IMG/VR virus record: IMGVR_UViG_3300027985_000085
Location: 1 to 26,409 of that record
Direction: 5' to 3' (one strand)
Length of the DNA stretch: 26,409 nt
Origin: a virus
This document shows positions 2,939 through 26,409 of the stretch, piece by piece. The notes under the pieces were generated by a model. That model worked only from the letters and a program-made list of their open reading frames with translations, was not told the DNA's origin and made no database searches. The first letter of the stretch is position 1. Every line of letters starts with the position of its first letter. The translations under genes and the position numbers were made by a program.

Positions 2939-3982
2939 ATGAGTCTGCAATCCGCTTTTATAGCCCATCAAATATGGCTTCAGCGTTATTCGACGCAAGA
3001 GGCCAACAAGTTCACACCGTATCTGACGCTATTACGTGATGAGATACGGCAGCAAGTCTTAGCCTTTGGCGACGATAGCCGCACCAGGGCGCGCCTGACC
3101 GCCATGCTGAAAGATTTAAACGATGCCCTTTACGGAATTACCTCTGATTGGGATGCCGTGTTACTAGAAGACCTAAAGGATTTGAGCGTCTATGAATCGG
3201 AATTTACGACAGAAACGCTACAAAAGAACGTGGTGGCAAACTTCACAACGCCAAGCCCCGAGCAAGTCTGGTCAGCAATCAAATTCAACCCGTTGCAGCT
3301 CGACGGACGCCCCGTTGATTTCACCAAACTGTTAGCAGCCTGGTCTGACACGGAGATATCACGACTCGTCATGGGCGTTAAAACAGGATTCGTGCAAGGG
3401 CTGCCGACGCGCCAGATAGTGAAGCAGGTCATAGGCGCGGGCGGATTGATGGATATCTCAGAGCGTCACGTTAAGACGATGGTTCACACGGCAATTGCCC
3501 ATGTATCTAACCAAGCGACAATGGAGACGTACAAGAAAAACGATGATGTGGTTATCGGGTATGAGATTATTGTGACGTTCGATAAACGGACCTCCGACAT
3601 CTGCCGCAATTTGCCACCGAACGAAATCTATGAATTCGGTAAAGGACCAGTACCGCCTCTTCATCCTTTTTGTAGGGATAAAGTAGCCCCGGCGATTAGT
3701 TCAGAATTCGACTTCTTAGATAAAGGCGCTAAACGTGCCGCGCGGGGTGCGGAAGGCGGGACACAAGTTGCCGCAGATATGACTTACTACGAGTTCCTGA
3801 AATCACAGCCTGCGTGGTTTCAAGATGAGGCGTTAGGCCCTGTGCGCGGCAAGATATTCAGGAACGCGGGTATGACGCCCGAAGAGTTCCGCGTAGCGAG
3901 TGTAGACGGTTTCGGCAACCCGCTAACCATTAAAGAAATGGCGGAACTGGACAAACGAGTTGCCGATTATTTGGCGAAATAG
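2939..3982 (+). CDS. MuF-like phage head morphogenesis protein
   Basis: A 347-residue minor head protein. The central-to-C-terminal part has the MuF pattern: a helix ERHVKTMVHTAIAHVSNQA, then GYEIIVTFDKRTSDICRNL and a Pro/His/Cys segment GPVPPLHPFCRDKVAP (about residues 235-250). This resembles the Cys/His-bearing end of the phage Mu gpF domain. Proteins of this family sit inside or at the portal of the procapsid and help assembly. The gene follows the portal once the inserted minus-strand gene is discounted, which is the classic order. It has its own candidate promoter. The final 40 residues (GMTPEEFRVASVDGFG onward) are a tail of unknown role. Confidence 0.85.
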   Translation: MSLQSAFIAHQIWLQRYSTQEANKFTPYLTLLRDEIRQQVLAFGDDSRTRARLTAMLKDLNDALYGITSDWDAVLLEDLKDLSVYESEFTTETLQKNVVANFTTPSPEQVWSAIKFNPLQLDGRPVDFTKLLAAWSDTEISRLVMGVKTGFVQGLPTRQIVKQVIGAGGLMDISERHVKTMVHTAIAHVSNQATMETYKKNDDVVIGYEIIVTFDKRTSDICRNLPPNEIYEFGKGPVPPLHPFCRDKVAPAISSEFDFLDKGAKRAARGAEGGTQVAADMTYYEFLKSQPAWFQDEALGPVRGKIFRNAGMTPEEFRVASVDGFGNPLTIKEMAELDKRVADYLAK

Positions 3983-3984
3983 GA

Positions 3985-4006
3985 AAAGCCCCTATTTCGG
4001 GGCTTT
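3985..4006. terminator. Bidirectional intrinsic terminator after MuF-like gene
   Basis: Stem AAAGCCCC / GGGGCTTT with loop TATTTC, followed by GATTTT on the plus strand. It sits between converging genes; the stop of the minus-strand gene (3992-3994) overlaps the edge of the loop. Confidence 0.8.
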
Positions 4007-4714
4007 GATTTTACCGTCCTTGAGGTCGATATATAGCTGCCGGACTGCCTCATAACTTAGTGGATAACCAAATTGCTCTTTAAAATCGCGCATCCAATCA
4101 TTTCTTGAGCAGAATTCGGATAGCGCTTCATCCGTAACTGGTTTAACTTCATCAATATGGGCGACATCTATGTATCCGTTGTGCTCCTCATAAACCACCG
4201 TTGGGCCTTTTAATAAAAGAACTCTAACAACGTTCTCGAATAAATTCGGTAGGATGAACTGCACCAAGTCTCCAACTTCAAAAAGTAAACCATCATGCCG
4301 CTCTGCGTTTGCTTTGTCTGCGATACGCGCGGCTTCCATTAGAGGAGTTGGTGCTGTATTTTTTACTTTAGGTTTATTTTTATCGGGGGTGGGCCCATAT
4401 CGGTCCCTAAAACTTTTAACAGAAAGATTGGCCTTATCCGCGTACACATCCTCTAGCTTTTGCCCCTCCGGAACCCAGTACCACCACACGGCATGTTTAA
4501 CCCCCTCCGACGAGGGTATTTGTTCACGCTGTATGTATCCCGCCATATAAAGATTTGCCATAGTTCGGGATATTTCATCAGGGTACACCCCCGATAGCCC
4601 CACCAGCTCAGGGTCACTTGAATATCTTTTACCCCCAAGTACTTCAAGAGCTGTGTATACCTCCAGTTTAAGTCCGCTAAGTAGTTTAACGCCTTTCGTA
4701 AATTTTTGTCGCAT
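3992..4714 (-). CDS. Hypothetical protein with winged-helix-like N-terminus
   Basis: A 240-residue minus-strand protein that I do not recognise as a named family. Residues about 15-65 (LKLEVYTALEVLGG ... LVGLSG ... ISRTMANLYMAGYIQREQ) have the spacing of a winged helix-turn-helix with a recognition helix and beta-wing. A Lys/Pro-rich linker (about 105-125) follows. The C-terminal part has a possible small beta-barrel (LLFEVGDLVQFILP ... NGYIDVAHIDEVKPV) and ends with helices. A DNA-binding regulator is a reasonable inference, not proven. ATG 4714 has GGGG 8 bases upstream. The gene has its own promoter and terminator, so it can be expressed apart from the flanking head genes. Confidence 0.7.
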   Translation of the reverse strand: MRQKFTKGVKLLSGLKLEVYTALEVLGGKRYSSDPELVGLSGVYPDEISRTMANLYMAGYIQREQIPSSEGVKHAVWWYWVPEGQKLEDVYADKANLSVKSFRDRYGPTPDKNKPKVKNTAPTPLMEAARIADKANAERHDGLLFEVGDLVQFILPNLFENVVRVLLLKGPTVVYEEHNGYIDVAHIDEVKPVTDEALSEFCSRNDWMRDFKEQFGYPLSYEAVRQLYIDLKDGKIKAPK

Positions 4715-5181: not shown

Positions 5182-5559
5182 ATGAAAAATATTTTGTTAG
5201 CGTTCCTGGCGGGGCTGATAATCGCGTATTTGAACGGTCTGTATCAGCATCATTCAGGTTATCAGGACGGACAGACAGCGCTATTATCAGAGCAGGCACA
5301 AGAGCAAGCCGAACGACTCGCCGCACAACAACGGCAACAAAAAGAAGACGACGCGAAAGCCGCCGCCGCCGATGAGATGGGAAAACAGAAAACAGAGGTG
5401 ATTTATCGTGATGTGGTCAAATATATTAAAACTCCTGGGCGTAATGTTTGTGTGTTCGATTCTGACCGGGTGCGCATCAAAGCCAGTGCCGTATCAAATG
5501 CCAACTGTCTTGCCGGATTTGATGACTGCCCCGTGCAAGCTGGCGGAACCGTCAAGTGA
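5182..5559 (+). CDS. Rz: Inner-membrane spanin (Rz-like)
   Basis: A 125-residue protein with an uncleaved N-terminal membrane anchor (residues 3-20, ILLAFLAGLIIAYLNGLY). A long Gln/Ala/Glu-rich periplasmic coiled coil follows (about 28-75), then a C-terminal part with three Cys. This is the normal i-spanin plan. With the o-spanin encoded by the overlapping gene, it bridges inner and outer membranes and fuses them in the last step of lysis. The ATG has AGGAAG about 6 bases upstream. The spanins stand in the head gene block, far from any visible holin or endolysin, which is unusual. Confidence 0.85.
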   Translation: MKNILLAFLAGLIIAYLNGLYQHHSGYQDGQTALLSEQAQEQAERLAAQQRQQKEDDAKAAAADEMGKQKTEVIYRDVVKYIKTPGRNVCVFDSDRVRIKASAVSNANCLAGFDDCPVQAGGTVK

Positions 5560-5677
5560 TGCCGATGAGGATTTACAGATAGATGTCCAAAACGCGGAAT
5601 GTGTTAGAACGTTGAGGCTGAAAGTGTATCGTTTGCAGGATTGGATTAGGAACGCGACAAAAGAAAAGCCCCAGTGA
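5408..5677 (+). CDS. Rz1: Outer-membrane spanin lipoprotein (Rz1-like)
   Basis: An 89-residue protein overlapping the 3' half of Rz in another frame, the classic Rz/Rz1 overlap. The signal sequence ends in the lipobox LTGC (Cys22 counted from GTG 5408), so the mature lipoprotein is about 68 residues. A Pro-containing linker (ASKPVPYQMPTVLPDL) follows and the C-terminal part is helical. GTG 5408 has AGAGGTG 7 bases upstream; ATG 5411 is the alternative start. It extends 118 bases past the end of Rz, so it is overlapping but not fully embedded. The TGA stop is in the terminator loop. Confidence 0.85.
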   Translation: MMWSNILKLLGVMFVCSILTGCASKPVPYQMPTVLPDLMTAPCKLAEPSSDADEDLQIDVQNAECVRTLRLKVYRLQDWIRNATKEKPQ

Positions 5678-20759: not shown

Positions 20760-20782
20760 AAAGCCCCTTACGGGGCTTTTTT
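20760..20782. terminator. Bidirectional terminator between tail and replication modules
   Basis: AAAGCCCC / GGGGCTTT with loop TTAC, T6 on the plus strand and TTTTATTT on the minus strand. The helicase stop TAA overlaps the loop. It separates the two converging gene blocks. Confidence 0.9.
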
Positions 20783-22201
20783 CTTCATGTAGTCCATTAG
20801 CAAATCCTGCACAGACTTTTTACTAATAACCCTCTCGGCAACAAGCCCGTCGAGCGTTTTATCCGCTTGAATCATGTACAAAAATACCGGTCGCGGGTGC
20901 CCCGCTTGCATCTGGCGCACAGGTCCGATACGTTCGATTATCTGCGCGTGGTGCTCGAAATTCCACGTAGGACTGAAAAACGCCAGGTGATGCCCGCCAT
21001 CTTGTAAGTTAAGCCCATGTCCCGCGCTCGCGGGATGAACGCATAAAACTGGCATTTCTCCCCGGTTCCAAGCGTCAATCTGATTGTTGCCGCGTTTACC
21101 TTTGGCGAGTGCTTCGGCCTGCGGGAATCGCTTCAGGATACGCGCTAAGTCGTGTTTGTATTGATACGCGACTAACAACGGCGCTCCGGCTAACTCCTCA
21201 ATAATAGAATCAAGCGCGTCCAGTTTCGCGTCGTGAATGCGTTCCCATTCGCCTGTCGACTCGCCGTCTTCATCGGTCACATACACCGCACCGGACGCAA
21301 TCTGTAAACACTTCGATGTTTTAGCCGCAGCGTTCGCCGCTTCGACTTCCCCCCGCTCTAGTTCTGCGCATAGCTTTTCTTCCATCTGCTGATAGGCTTT
21401 CATCGCTTTCGGCGGCAACGTCACGACGACCGGAATAGTGACAGGTTCGTCGCAACCGAAATACTCTGCGGCGTCGATAGTGAGGCTGATATCCGCTAGT
21501 TTCTCATGAATTTCTGTATCAGCGCCTTTTCGTGGGGAATACTCACGCGCTGCCGGATGCCCGCCTTTCGATACCGACGAGAACCATCTGTCTGTAAACG
21601 CCGAATAAGATGACCCGAGGCGCTCGCCTGCGTCAATAAACCAGTTTTGACCCCATAAGTCTTTTAGCCCGTTTGGCGACGGCGTACCGGTTAAGTTAAC
21701 GAATCGTTTCACATTTTTAAAGGCTACTTTGCTCAGTGCTTTGGCACGTTTGCTGCCGCCAGAGCGACTGCGGAACGATTTTAATTTGGTTGATTCATCG
21801 GCAACAATCATAGTGAATGGCCATGCGTCGCCGTAGTAGTCGATTAACCAGTCAATCACCTCGTAATTAATAGCGATGATATTCGAGTCGCTATTCAATG
21901 CACGGATGCGGTCTGCTTCTTTTCCGGTTGCGTCCGCGATGCGCACATTACGAAAGTTCCATTTTAATTGCTCTTTCGGCCATGTATCTGACGCAACGCG
22001 CAACGGCGCCAGTATTAAAACGCGGTCGCCGGTTTCTCCGTCCCAGTCTCGCAAGTCACCTGTATGAAGCATCCTGTCGATGCTCCACATTATTGAGCTG
22101 GTCTTCCCGGAGCCCATCGTCGCGTAAATATTGCAGCGACAATTCTCAATCACGAATTTAGTAATTTCTTTTTGATAAGGGCGTCGTTTAAATTTCGCCA
22201 T
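20768..22201 (-). CDS. SNF2-like DNA helicase / translocase
   Basis: A 477-residue superfamily 2 ATPase. Motif I (Walker A) is ATMGSGKT (GSGKT at 30-34); motif Ia LILAPLRVA (62-70); motif II VADEST (133-138); motif III NLTGTPSPNG (169-178). The second RecA domain has SAGHGLNLQDGG (392-403) and ERIGPVRQ (423-430), a motif VI form common in phage SNF2-like helicases. It likely remodels or unwinds DNA in phage replication or recombination, working with the neighbouring nuclease and polymerase. The ATG overlaps the end of the upstream Cys-rich gene. Length is normal for this phage group. Confidence 0.9.
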   Translation of the reverse strand: MAKFKRRPYQKEITKFVIENCRCNIYATMGSGKTSSIMWSIDRMLHTGDLRDWDGETGDRVLILAPLRVASDTWPKEQLKWNFRNVRIADATGKEADRIRALNSDSNIIAINYEVIDWLIDYYGDAWPFTMIVADESTKLKSFRSRSGGSKRAKALSKVAFKNVKRFVNLTGTPSPNGLKDLWGQNWFIDAGERLGSSYSAFTDRWFSSVSKGGHPAAREYSPRKGADTEIHEKLADISLTIDAAEYFGCDEPVTIPVVVTLPPKAMKAYQQMEEKLCAELERGEVEAANAAAKTSKCLQIASGAVYVTDEDGESTGEWERIHDAKLDALDSIIEELAGAPLLVAYQYKHDLARILKRFPQAEALAKGKRGNNQIDAWNRGEMPVLCVHPASAGHGLNLQDGGHHLAFFSPTWNFEHHAQIIERIGPVRQMQAGHPRPVFLYMIQADKTLDGLVAERVISKKSVQDLLMDYMKKKAP

Positions 22202-22457
22202 AATACGATTTATCCTTCAGCTTTGTTACATCTTTTACTAAAGTGCGTTTAACCCGCAACCGCTCCGCCTCGCGTTTACTACGGCAACTTTTACAAGTGG
22301 TGCGGAAGCCGTCGGCACTGCGGCACGATTTACCGATGTACTTGCTAAACTCCGCCAACGGCTTTTCTTTCTCGCAGACGTTGCAGACCTTTTTCAAAAG
22401 GGTGAGCTGCCGTTGTGTGATTGTTTCGGCTAACTTTTTCGGCTTTGGTTTTTTCAT
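22188..22457 (-). CDS. Small Cys4 zinc-finger-like protein
   Basis: An 89-residue basic protein. I chose ATG 22457; an upstream TTG at 22508 would overlap the nuclease gene and read through the palindrome TGGTTGCAACCA. It has two CxxC pairs (Cys25/28 and Cys55/58) that could bind zinc, with KEKPLAEFSKYIGKS between them and a Lys/Arg-rich C-terminal helix. This looks like the zinc-binding part of endonuclease VII-type or HNH proteins, but no catalytic HNH block follows. It is probably a DNA-binding accessory protein. It overlaps the helicase start by 14 bases. Confidence 0.65.
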   Translation of the reverse strand: MKKPKPKKLAETITQRQLTLLKKVCNVCEKEKPLAEFSKYIGKSCRSADGFRTTCKSCRSKREAERLRVKRTLVKDVTKLKDKSYYGEI

Positions 22458-22475
22458 GAATTTATTCTTGTAGTG

Positions 22476-22487
22476 TGGTTGCAACCA
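22476..22487. promoter_or_regulatory. Perfect 12-base palindrome TGGTTGCAACCA
   Basis: Lies in the gap between the VRR-NUC gene and the Cys-rich gene. It contains the GCAACCA core of the element found upstream of four minus-strand genes. It could be a protein-binding site; evidence is sequence only. Confidence 0.4.
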
Positions 22488-22492
22488 ATAGT

Positions 22493-22780
22493 CTACGTCA
22501 TGCCGCAATATTTAGCAACCAATGTCATTACTTGCCGCTCGTCACCGACGACATGAACTGTCGCGCCTTTCTTTACTAGGCGCATGTGCTCCCGTTTCTG
22601 GTGTTCTGCGGCTTCAGTATCGGCTGATTTTTTCATCTCTAAGAACAACACGAACCCGTTAATCACAACTAATAAGTCGGGGCATCCTCGACGCCCCTCA
22701 TATGAAATTTTGCGAACTAATGCGCCGCGTTTTTTAAATTCGTCCATCGCGAATTTTTGTACCTTTCCTTCAGGCGTCAT
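22493..22780 (-). CDS. VRR-NUC family nuclease
   Basis: A 95-residue stand-alone VRR-NUC (PD-(D/E)xK) nuclease. I chose ATG 22780 because it overlaps the preceding TGA as ATGA; ATG 22795 is also possible. The active site reads E4, then GCPDLLVV (Asp35) and FLEMKK (Glu48, Lys50), with Gln61 in HQKREHMRL. These match the family's E..PD..ExK..Q pattern and full domain length. Such proteins are common beside SNF2-like helicases in phages and are thought to resolve branched DNA. Known from family; activity here is inferred. Confidence 0.85.
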   Translation of the reverse strand: MTPEGKVQKFAMDEFKKRGALVRKISYEGRRGCPDLLVVINGFVLFLEMKKSADTEAAEHQKREHMRLVKKGATVHVVGDERQVMTLVAKYCGMT

Positions 22781-23413: not shown

Positions 23414-23679
23414 AATGGTTTCCTGATGAATGCCTGTGCCAAACTAAAAGCACTCGGGCGAACCGTAAAGCGGATATCGTCCGCACGGTTGCCGAAGTTC
23501 GCTTTTCCTAGCACTTCCATTGAGATGGTTAAATGAAACTGGTCGTCGTAACGCATGGCGTAGCTTACCGCCTCCGTTACCGCCTGCTTACGGCATTTAA
23601 GCGCCGCGCACACTTCAGAGCGTAACACCGGCGCGTTATTAATCACATATCTGACAATAGCGTTATCACTTGCTGACAT
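23392..23679 (-). CDS. Hypothetical protein with HTH-like N-terminal part
   Basis: A 95-residue protein and first gene of the small-gene run after the polymerase. Residues about 5-45 (AIVRYVINNAPVLRSEVCAA ... QAVTEAVSYAMRYDD) have the helix spacing of a winged helix-turn-helix. The rest has DIRFTVRPSAFSLAQAF and a basic end (KKRKH). A possible DNA-binding regulator, unproven. ATG 23679 is preceded by a 72-base gap that holds a GCAACCAACAA element, so a promoter may lie here. Confidence 0.6.
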   Translation of the reverse strand: MSASDNAIVRYVINNAPVLRSEVCAALKCRKQAVTEAVSYAMRYDDQFHLTISMEVLGKANFGNRADDIRFTVRPSAFSLAQAFIRKPLCKKRKH

Positions 23680-23727
23680 CGTTCAAAACCCTGTTTTGTT
23701 ATCGTGTTTTAATACTAGCGCTTATAT

Positions 23728-23738
23728 TTGTTGGTTGC
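23728..23738 (-). promoter_or_regulatory. GCAACCAACAA element downstream of polymerase
   Basis: Exact copy of the 11-base element on the minus strand, 48 bases before ATG 23679. The upstream sequence is AT-rich but shows no clear -10/-35 boxes, so its link to a promoter here is weaker than at 2845 and 4734. Confidence 0.45.
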
Positions 23739-23751
23739 AAATATTTATTTG

Positions 23752-26409
23752 TTATTTGGCGTATCTTTTCATGCAAGCGCCCTCTGCGGCTAAAGGAAAT
23801 CCCTGTGCCCAGTCTGGAAGCGTGCACATTAATTCTTCCAAACCTTTGACTGAATATTCGTCTGTGTCAGGAACTTCAGTGATAATTTCGTCGTGAACGT
23901 GCAACACGATTGGATAACCGTTTTCTTCAACATTCAGCAAGGCGTTAGCCAATAAGTCGCGGCAAAGTGCTTGAGTGCAGTTGTGCGCGATTACCGGGCC
24001 ATCATTACCAAACACAACAAATTGGTTACGCGGGCCACAATTCACTAAGTCGTAGACGTCAGCGCGCGCTCGTGCGTCCACCCATTGTCTAACCGGTAGA
24101 GAAGCGTTGAATAATTTATTTTGTAACGTCGCGCCGCTTCTGCCACTGAAATTAATCCCAGAGGCGTATTCATTAAACGGGTTGTTCGCCTGTTGTTCGC
24201 GTTTTTTCTTCGCGAGTGCCAGCGACAATTCTCGGCGCAATAGCTGCCGTTGTTGTCTTTTCTGTTTAAATCCTTTCCGGTTCGATAAGTAGGACCCATA
24301 TCCGCCCAGAAGTTCTCGAAACTTTCCTGCCATCTGGCACAAACCGTTATCCCGCGTCCTCCGTAGTTTTTCCAAGCTTGATGCGTTGGTAAACGGCAAC
24401 GGTCTACCATTGACCTCCATACGGAGAATGCGGGATGATTTGACATGCCGTGCGTTTGTTGTTTTTTCCCTATTGTTACCTTCCTCATACAACCGCATGA
24501 TGCCGTTACCTCTCGCTTTTGCTGCTTTATCAATTCTGTTGCTGGCATTGTTACGACTTTTCCGCAGTCGCATTTTATCTCCCATATTGATTTTTTCCCA
24601 TCTGAGCCCACCCAGCGTAACGCCACTAGGTAACCAACACGTAATCCTGTTATGTCTTTCGCACGATGATGCATCCGTCCATCCTTCTTTGGTTAGAATT
24701 TTGTGGTCTGGCGTAAGTATAGCACCGTATTTTGATATTACGGTTTGTTTACCTTTATAAACTAATTTATCAAAAGTTACAAATTCCAAGCCGTCCCACA
24801 CTTTAAAGTTAGGATTGGCGCGATGTAGCGGCATTAAACCCATATGCTCCTGCAATATCAGCATATCCCCACTTATGCAGTTTTCTGCTAGTTTTCCGCC
24901 ATATGTGTACTGGGTAGACCATTGGCGTGTTGTCTGGTTTTCGCCCTGATATCTAATTTTGGTTCGCTTGTTTTCTTTGCCAGAGTCCTCGTCTATTTCA
25001 ATCTCAACAGACAAACCGATACCTGGATAAGACAAAATGCGTCCAGACGGCAGCTCTACTTTAAGCCACCAGCTCGGATTTTTACCATCTAACGGGCGGG
25101 TGATTCGGATCGCCCTGTTGCCGTCTGTACGCACACGAGCGCCAGCCCAGTAATCTCTACCCGGATTACGGATGGCATTAACTGCCGCCTCTTCTAAATC
25201 CCACCAGAATTGTTGGATATGTGGATTTGATTCGCGATACATGCGCTTGATTGAATCGCATGTTAACCAGACCTTTTTAGGCAAATCGTAGGATGGACGT
25301 TCGGCTTTCTGTCCTTTCGGTGCGCGTTTGTTCTTTTCCTGAATACGGGCGAATTCAAATCCTTTTAGCGCCGCTTTCCATATGTGGTCGGGGAAAGTTC
25401 CGTCCATATCCTCAGACAGTTTTAGCAGGTCTAGCCCTAAGTTTTTAGCAAATGTTAAAAACGCGGCGACTCCACCGCCATAGCCAAGCCCTAAAATGCA
25501 CGCTTTGGCGACTTGGCGCTGGTCTTTATTTACGTCGTCATAATTAACTTTGAACATTGACGAGGCGAGCACTTTATAAAGGTCTGTACCTGCTCGGAAA
25601 ACATCGAGCGTCTTTTCTTCTCCAGCTAACCAAGCAAGCCCGCGCCCTTCCACATTCGAATAGTCGGCAACAGTGAACTTGTTTCCAGATTCTGGCGCAA
25701 CACACGACCGAACCGTCGATGCGGCCAATTTAGCCACATCAAACCGTCTATGCGCTCGGCTTCGTAGTAACGCTTTTATACCTCGTTCTAAATCCTTATC
25801 GTGATAATACCCTCGCGCTAAGTTCTGCGGCTGAAAAGATTTTCCAGACCAACGCAACGTCCGTTTAGCTCCGCCGTACTGCAAACAGCCACGACGACGC
25901 CCATCTTTAGACAATCCGCGAAGTAAAGGGTGATACTTAGTCGAGGCGGTAGAAGAAGCGCCCAGGCGCATTTCTATGAGCTCTCGAGCCTCGTCTGGCA
26001 AGTCTTCATCGTCTAGTAAACCGTTCAGCGTGGATTTCTGCGCATTCGGTACTTGGTGCGCGGGCGCTAACTCGCGCAGAGTCGGCAGGAACGACGCGCC
26101 TGTTAAGCTGCTGCCGTGGTTATCTTGCGCGGTCTGTTGGAGTTCCTTTTTGTGCGCTGTTACAGCAGCAATCGCGGCATTCGCTAAAGCCGTGTCCACG
26201 TAAAAGCCCCGGTCATTGATTTTAATGTCCAGCTCTAACACGCGGTCTTCGAATTCAGAATTTCCCCACGTAGGCATAGCCCAATAGACCTCACGCATTG
26301 CCTCGACGTCTTTACGGGCGTAGTTCAGAAAGCGTTTCCAGTCTTCGGGGTGCGTTTCACTCGTATAGCGGCGCACTTTGTAATTCTTTGGCGTCGGTTT
26401 GCAGAAACG
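23752..26409 (-). CDS. Family A DNA polymerase interrupted by an intein (5' truncated)
   Basis: The frame is open to the window edge (RFCKPTPKNYK precedes GTG 26376), so the true start lies outside. Counting GTG 26376 as residue 1: end of the 3'-5' exonuclease region with ARKDVEAM (20-27); motif A VADYSNVEGRGLAWL (236-250, Asp238); motif B RQVAKACILGLGYGGG (287-302); motif C VLHVHDEI (824-831, His828-Asp829-Glu830). These are the palm and finger residues of family A phage polymerases. An intein occupies residues 500-799, between motifs B and C; without it the host sequence reads YGGKLAEN-CTQALCRDLL. Active polymerase therefore needs protein splicing. The enzyme replicates the phage genome and heads the minus-strand DNA module. 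Confidence 0.92.
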   Translation of the reverse strand, partial: RFCKPTPKNYKVRRYTSETHPEDWKRFLNYARKDVEAMREVYWAMPTWGNSEFEDRVLELDIKINDRGFYVDTALANAAIAAVTAHKKELQQTAQDNHGSSLTGASFLPTLRELAPAHQVPNAQKSTLNGLLDDEDLPDEARELIEMRLGASSTASTKYHPLLRGLSKDGRRRGCLQYGGAKRTLRWSGKSFQPQNLARGYYHDKDLERGIKALLRSRAHRRFDVAKLAASTVRSCVAPESGNKFTVADYSNVEGRGLAWLAGEEKTLDVFRAGTDLYKVLASSMFKVNYDDVNKDQRQVAKACILGLGYGGGVAAFLTFAKNLGLDLLKLSEDMDGTFPDHIWKAALKGFEFARIQEKNKRAPKGQKAERPSYDLPKKVWLTCDSIKRMYRESNPHIQQFWWDLEEAAVNAIRNPGRDYWAGARVRTDGNRAIRITRPLDGKNPSWWLKVELPSGRILSYPGIGLSVEIEIDEDSGKENKRTKIRYQGENQTTRQWSTQYTYGGKLAENCISGDMLILQEHMGLMPLHRANPNFKVWDGLEFVTFDKLVYKGKQTVISKYGAILTPDHKILTKEGWTDASSCERHNRITCWLPSGVTLGGLRWEKINMGDKMRLRKSRNNASNRIDKAAKARGNGIMRLYEEGNNREKTTNARHVKSSRILRMEVNGRPLPFTNASSLEKLRRTRDNGLCQMAGKFRELLGGYGSYLSNRKGFKQKRQQRQLLRRELSLALAKKKREQQANNPFNEYASGINFSGRSGATLQNKLFNASLPVRQWVDARARADVYDLVNCGPRNQFVVFGNDGPVIAHNCTQALCRDLLANALLNVEENGYPIVLHVHDEIITEVPDTDEYSVKGLEELMCTLPDWAQGFPLAAEGACMKRYAK
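24045..24674 (-). CDS. HNH homing-type endonuclease nested out of frame inside the intein
   Basis: A complete 209-residue gene in the +1 frame relative to the polymerase. N-terminal KDITGLRVGYL and a Cys-rich part (Cys35, Cys37, Cys60, Cys62) may bind zinc. The nuclease core has WKNYGGRGITVCARW (101-115) and NRKDNNGSYCAENCRW (137-152) followed by NANNRR (158-163). A C-terminal helix-turn-helix (ISVAEAARRYKINYSTLL, 175-192; GWTHERALT) would read DNA. This is the plan of free-standing phage HNH nucleases. The family's usual LDR reads LNR here (Asn137), which may matter for activity. ATG 24674 has AAAGAAGGA 7 bases upstream, and a TAA closes the frame 6 codons before it. The stop lies inside intein block F. 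It probably drives intein homing. Confidence 0.88.
   Translation of the reverse strand: MHHRAKDITGLRVGYLVALRWVGSDGKKSIWEIKCDCGKVVTMPATELIKQQKREVTASCGCMRKVTIGKKQQTHGMSNHPAFSVWRSMVDRCRLPTHQAWKNYGGRGITVCARWQESFENFWADMGPTYRTGKDLNRKDNNGSYCAENCRWHSRRKNANNRRTTRLMNTPLGLISVAEAARRYKINYSTLLYRLDNGWTHERALTSTT
24682..24690 (-). promoter_or_regulatory. Internal ribosome binding site for the nested HNH gene
   Basis: AAAGAAGGA lies 7 bases before the HNH ATG at 24674. The same bases encode the intein residues after block B (KEG). Its strength and spacing support independent translation of the nested gene. Confidence 0.75.

Follow-up and report, generated by a model that had tools for sequence, protein, structure and literature searches.

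In textbook homing inteins, the nuclease is carried inside the spliced protein itself. Fractured genes, reportedly described by Dassa et al. in 2009, are said to be split inteins with an intervening homing endonuclease gene. A further arrangement is the ShiLan domain, an out-of-frame HNH in mycobacteriophage methylases, where no intein blocks occur according to its authors (PMC11855218). A sequence-only reading of the phage locus analysed here, which proposed an intein with a complete out-of-frame HNH gene, knew of no standard description for such an element. This was nearly right: the closest published case that we found is the ShiLan out-of-frame HNH, which is not an intein (PMC11855218). 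In the accessible literature, no description of inteins with an out-of-frame nuclease was found. The window, a stretch of 26,409 nucleotides from the IMG/VR virus record IMGVR_UViG_3300027985_000085, very probably holds a two-frame mobile intein, composed of a splicing unit and a separate HNH homing gene in the +1 frame.

The gene that hosts the insert (Table 1) encodes a family-A DNA polymerase (Pfam DNA_pol_A, E=4e-20; PHROG DNA polymerase, E=1.5e-93), and its reading frame of 885 aa, open at the 5′ end, contains no internal stop. The insert starts with CISGDM (Cys1), carries TPDH as block B and ends in VIAHN (His-Asn), followed by a +1 Cys. Its intN and intC profiles are common to 97 other inteins, and an hmmsearch comparison with solved inteins gave a best E of 6e-6. 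In the AF2 model, for which alignments were built from the window and the scan loci only, residues 1-88 and about 270-300 are confident, with pLDDT below 50 at residues 90-174, 176-185 and 192-263. The top Foldseek matches of this model were all inteins (best E 2.7e-3, probability 1.00), and on the predicted structure the insert is an intein with a HINT fold. No in-frame nuclease domain was found in the window intein, where the in-frame region is disordered and has no nuclease match. The locus differs in this way from a conventional homing intein, as the HNH lies in the +1 frame; from a fractured gene or split intein, as the host frame is continuous; and from a ShiLan-type insert, as the out-of-frame HNH is present but so are the intein blocks. 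Near the polymerase gene, positions 22188-22508 (-) encode a small cysteine-rich protein (CNVCEKEKPLAEFSKY...CKSC) with no Pfam match.

The HNH gene begins at the second base of an intein codon and stops inside block F. Its product matches the PHROG_374 HNH endonuclease (E=6e-55), 821 phage records match it at E<=1e-5, and a fold search of the HNH model against the PDB gave no meaningful match. The Shine-Dalgarno-like site of the gene pairs with the 16S tail with a duplex energy of -7.9 kcal/mol, and an in-frame TAA ahead of the ATG shows that the HNH frame does not continue from a longer one upstream. The coordinates and the frame coincide with those first proposed, namely a 300-residue intein and a 209-residue +1 HNH with a Shine-Dalgarno sequence, an ATG, an upstream stop and a stop codon in block F. 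Elsewhere in the window, at 5182-5677 (+), the ORFs 5182-5559 and 5408-5677 overlap in different frames, and the second one has a lipoprotein-like start; they resemble a nested Rz/Rz1 spanin pair.

Table 1. Features of the polymerase locus, in coordinates of the window
Feature	Position	Strand	Remarks
Family-A DNA polymerase gene (phage), intein host	23752..26409	-	5′ end outside the window
Intein, 300 aa	23980..24879	-	Between ...YGGKLAEN and CTQALCRD
N-terminal splicing half, blocks A and B, intein residues ~1-88	24616..24879	-	pLDDT ~90 over residues 1-80; TPDH conserved
C-terminal splicing half, blocks F and G, residues 272-300	23980..24066	-	pLDDT ~90; VYDLVNCGPRNQFVV...VIAHN conserved
Overlap in the intein frame, predicted disordered filler, intein residues 90-263	24091..24612	-	AF2 pLDDT
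HNH-type endonuclease gene, 209 codons and stop, +1 frame	24045..24674	-	Nested entirely within the intein
Shine-Dalgarno-like GAAGGATGG of the HNH gene	24679..24687	-	Same bases are the intein codons Glu-Gly-Trp
TAA in the HNH frame	24693..24695	-	21 nt upstream of the ATG; from sequence

To find relatives of this unit, IMG/VR and GTDB genomes were scanned with the HNH, either as a single protein or as an alignment; the intein-block alignment was too diverse to serve for this. Together with the GenBank phages, this gave at least 98 non-redundant inteins in which a +1 HNH and the intein frame around it are both free of stops; in three of them the HNH profile scores weakly (40-43 bits). The true size of the class probably exceeds 98, because only 80 of the 172 confirmed stretches from the last IMG/VR scan entered the count. 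Two-frame units occur in GenBank in the APSE phages of Hamiltonella, four Caulobacter phages and Shewanella phage SFCi1, and nine of the 98 come from bacterial genome assemblies (Alicyclobacillus, Paenibacillus, Novosphingobium, Burkholderiales, Spirochaetota, Verrucomicrobiota, Oscillospiraceae and Clostridiales). Near relatives of the window phage itself, as judged by the polymerase exteins, were not found in IMG/VR. Compensating indels or an assembly error were considered as the source of the register and rejected, as all 98 non-redundant records share it, with no indels that would bring the HNH in frame. Neither did we find families where the HNH frame is routinely broken and the intein frame is kept, the other observation that would have spoken against the sequence-only reading. 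In one record (L187) both frames shift together at one point, which looks like a single indel or a sequence error. Judged by these sequences, what was noticed as a single oddity is a large recurrent class in phages and prophages, and the data point to two-frame inteins as a widespread, barely described kind of mobile element.

Among 59 full-length free-standing HNH relatives, neither alternative frame is ever open (means of 16.3 and 9.3 stops), and the one that matches the intein frame, with a mean of 16 stops, is open in 0 of the 59. The openness of the intein frame is not an ascertainment effect, because this frame was unused in finding the relatives; that of the HNH frame is ascertained. 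In 20,000 synonymous shuffles of the window HNH, which kept protein and codon usage, 7.9 stops were expected in the intein frame and the frequency of an open frame was 5e-5, close to the roughly 4 in 100,000 estimated beforehand. With the codon usage of the free-standing relatives, no open frame appeared in 5,000 draws (13.6 stops expected), and the codon-shuffle P for an open intein frame is <=0.01 in 83 of 95 nested genes.

The pattern of substitutions tells the two frames apart. Between pairs of units that diverge by 10-25%, 60% of the changes fall at HNH position 3, which is the first position of intein codons, and mean amino-acid identity is 0.81 in the HNH vs 0.54 in the intein frame; the pairs share history, and both statistics are descriptive. 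Four-fold sites are only slightly above saturation (an excess of about 0.04 in nested vs 0.013 in free copies at 45-55% identity), and nested copies retain zinc-type cysteines and motif residues just as free copies do. The idea that the intein-frame filler is strongly conserved was rejected, with four-fold sites near saturation and changes concentrated at HNH position 3. Since such changes accumulate and yet no stops appear, the HNH is, on the sequence comparison, selected as a protein and the intein frame in the overlap mainly to stay open; the disorder that AF2 predicts for the overlap agrees with selection mainly for openness. The initial proposal that selection holds the intein frame open stands as regards openness (98 open frames vs none among the 59 free relatives), and is refined in that selection acts mainly on openness, not on sequence. 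Likewise, the synonymous-site comparison that had been suggested for both frames revealed protein-level constraint in the HNH, but little sequence constraint in the intein frame.

A two-frame mobile intein would work through a single stretch of mRNA read in two frames. The polymerase frame would give a HINT intein, with two splicing halves joined by about 180 poorly conserved disordered residues, which is expected to excise itself and leave an intact polymerase. Ribosomes that start separately in the +1 frame would yield a free HNH-type homing endonuclease. The expected target of this enzyme is the insertion site in polymerase alleles without the intein; repair of a cut allele would then copy in the whole 900-bp unit, resulting in homing.

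One residue sets the nuclease of the window apart from nearly all others: it has Asn137 at a position that is Asp or Glu in 96 of 98 nested or split copies and in 62 of 62 free ones, and also in the L024 and APSE-1 homologues. The sequence match of the window HNH to I-HmuI is weak (E=0.047), and by that alignment N137 falls at the motif acid. As it replaces a near-invariant Asp/Glu, this copy may be weakened, and we consider it possibly attenuated, perhaps not fully active. A stronger version, where the window copy would be a relic with an inactive HNH, its frame still open because the loss of activity was recent, seems unlikely to us: N137 speaks for it, as do deletion derivatives such as L116, an indication that HNH loss happens, but the frame, the start and the other conserved motif residues are intact. 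Moreover, protein-level conservation is strong throughout the family; relic status could hold for the window copy, not for the family.

The distribution of the units bears on the proposed mobility. The polymerase exteins of the window share about 70% identity with Guernseyvirinae polymerases that lack an intein. By comparison, the window HNH has 61-63% identity to its counterparts in two other units (L008 and L024), while the polymerases of those two reach only 37-39% identity to that of the window. Intein-less alleles at the AEN/CTQA junction, which the sequence-only reading had proposed to look for, do exist in Tsm2 (YGGKLAENIVQALCRD) and BPP-1 (YGGKLAENVTQAASRD). Around YGGK|L|xEN|V, the polymerase insertion sites are staggered by a few codons, and the +1 residue is always Cys. 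Some polymerase genes (L148, L129, L139 and L160) contain two such inteins each, eight units reside in SNF2-type helicase genes at two nearby sites, and one record (L031) combines a two-frame intein in the polymerase with another in the helicase. The SNF2-type helicase of the window, at 20768-22201 (-), reads ...NAAAKTSKCLQIASGAVY, the empty version of the site occupied by two-frame inteins in L031 and L048. In three other records (L012, L122 and L125), a second small intein of about 120-140 aa lies upstream in the same polymerase gene, and no HNH was found in this small intein.

Two further sets of units extend the picture. In Jerseyvirus-type polymerases (L006, L112, L115, L209 and L210) the HNH lies in the +2 frame, at another site. 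The Salmonella phages LDDK01 and CTH7 differ by exactly one such unit of 897 bp, with flanks 94% identical; 155 Salmonella records match its HNH, and it is only for the related +2 units that mobility is shown at the level of alleles. A third set, again with a +1 HNH, occurs in polymerases of Streptococcus and Gardnerella phages (L111 and L114). Because different registers are found at similar places, several independent captures are suggested. The sequences as a whole fit a two-frame unit that is patchily distributed and moves between genes and phages.

As to its origin, a free-standing HNH gene probably entered a mini-intein at the usual endonuclease position. This direction, already put forward from the sequence alone together with the idea of a resulting two-frame unit, finds support in free-standing outside relatives, mini-inteins and the patchy distribution. 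In the HNH tree, nested copies are strongly clustered (5 changes vs 40 with shuffled labels), helicase units form their own clade, and the nearest relatives outside the nested clade are free-standing genes. Mini-inteins without HNH (L113 and L116) exist in the same kind of polymerase, and L116 keeps, by eye, remnants of both ends of a Javan113-type insert, as expected after nuclease loss. Directly 3′ of an intein-less polymerase, record L183 has a free-standing HNH of the nested clade (3377-4012) that is sister to the nested copy of L189 (support 100/99), a possible intermediate of invasion or escape. An in-frame HNH domain could instead have been shifted out by indels, to acquire its own start later and persist as a gene, and the standard intein endonuclease position of the HNH would suit such a history. 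We find it improbable, as none of the classified units (98 with +1, 6 with +2) has its HNH in frame with the intein, the closest relatives outside the clade are those free-standing genes, and the occurrence of both +1 and +2 registers suggests separate insertions.

Of the nested genes, 63 have an ATG or GTG at the domain start or at most one codon away. Shine-Dalgarno-like sites precede 92% of nested HNH genes, and the 20 nt upstream of the starts of those 63 members pair with the 16S tail with a mean of -7.5 kcal/mol, or -6.4 after synonymous resampling of the intein codons. Therefore, the conserved Glu-Gly-Trp motif of the intein (GAA GGA TGG) appears to double as a Shine-Dalgarno sequence, extra codon choice being a small part of the signal, and the ribosome site of nested genes is, at the sequence level, partly a by-product of this motif. 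We infer that the HNH protein is made by internal initiation. Programmed +1 frameshifting, which would produce an IntN-HNH fusion with no independent start, is very unlikely: it would account for the +1 position of the HNH throughout the main family and for its beginning right after block B, but not for the starts and Shine-Dalgarno sites of those 63 members, the stop that precedes the start in the HNH frame of the window, the +2 register of Jerseyvirus-type units, or relatives where the halves and the nuclease are three separate genes with an ATGA overlap. These last ones (L018, L145 and L184), with IntN, HNH and IntC as three ORFs and the HNH stop overlapping the IntC start, are by their sequence split-intein, “fractured gene” versions of the two-frame family.

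A self-splicing RNA intron that carries an ORF is hardly credible as an explanation of the insert, and a group I intron was rejected: the annotators of SO-1 gp38/gp39 proposed one for a related insert, and group I introns are known in polymerase genes of T7-like phages (reference 40 of PMC11855218), but blocks A, B, F and G, the His-Asn end and the +1 Cys are present, 98 loci have a host frame that reads through the insert with no stop, and Rfam searches returned no match in the window at 23500-25300 (E<=1) and no intron in ten relatives, SO-1 included.

Two-frame inteins, rather than an isolated case, likely form a major class of phage inteins with overlapping frames, which had several independent origins (one at the polymerase C-site and in helicases, with a +1 HNH; one in polymerases of Streptococcus and Gardnerella phages, also +1; and one in Jerseyvirus-type polymerases, +2), uncouples the nuclease from splicing, and feeds into split inteins when the host frame breaks. 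On the same reading, members would have been missed because annotation usually reports one frame, and many polymerase genes probably hold an unannotated nuclease gene. If so, nuclease translation and splicing could be tuned separately while locked together in the DNA, where a frameshift in the overlap would break both intein and HNH. The family also offers a testable model for the entry of endonucleases into inteins, for the loss that gives mini-inteins such as L116 and for the origin of split inteins (L018, L145, L184), and about 100 natural long overlapping gene pairs for studies of dual-frame selection.

Parts of this arrangement have been seen before but left unexplained, in APSE-1 P46, SO-1 gp39 and the non-intein ShiLan domain. 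The same nested organization is visible in the annotation of APSE-1 P45/P46 (NC_000935), where P46, inside P45, is annotated only in part (about 140 codons), and in that of Sodalis phage SO-1 (L210), where gp39 lies inside gp38 and the two-frame intein is labelled a “type I self-splicing intron”, a label with no Rfam support. In ShiLan and Pacc40 gp60 (PMC11855218), too, an open insert in a phage gene contains an HNH gene out of frame, with a patchy distribution; the ShiLan insert has no intein blocks, detectable splicing or visible ribosome site (PMC11855218), whereas the window has a clear intein and a Shine-Dalgarno sequence. With free-standing phage HNH proteins (PHROG_374) and I-HmuI, the window HNH shares the sequence family and the conserved motif, but it is nested in an intein, and the position of the I-HmuI motif His is Arg in nearly all family members, nested and free. 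Fractured genes have a separate endonuclease gene between the intein halves, as L018, L145 and L184 do, whereas the intein halves of the window are one continuous frame that overlaps the nuclease gene. Finally, full-length homing inteins such as PI-SceI and HINT mini-inteins share with the window the splicing halves, Cys1, the His-Asn end, the +1 nucleophile and the nuclease position between blocks B and F, but the window encodes its nuclease in another frame as a gene of its own, outside the spliced protein.
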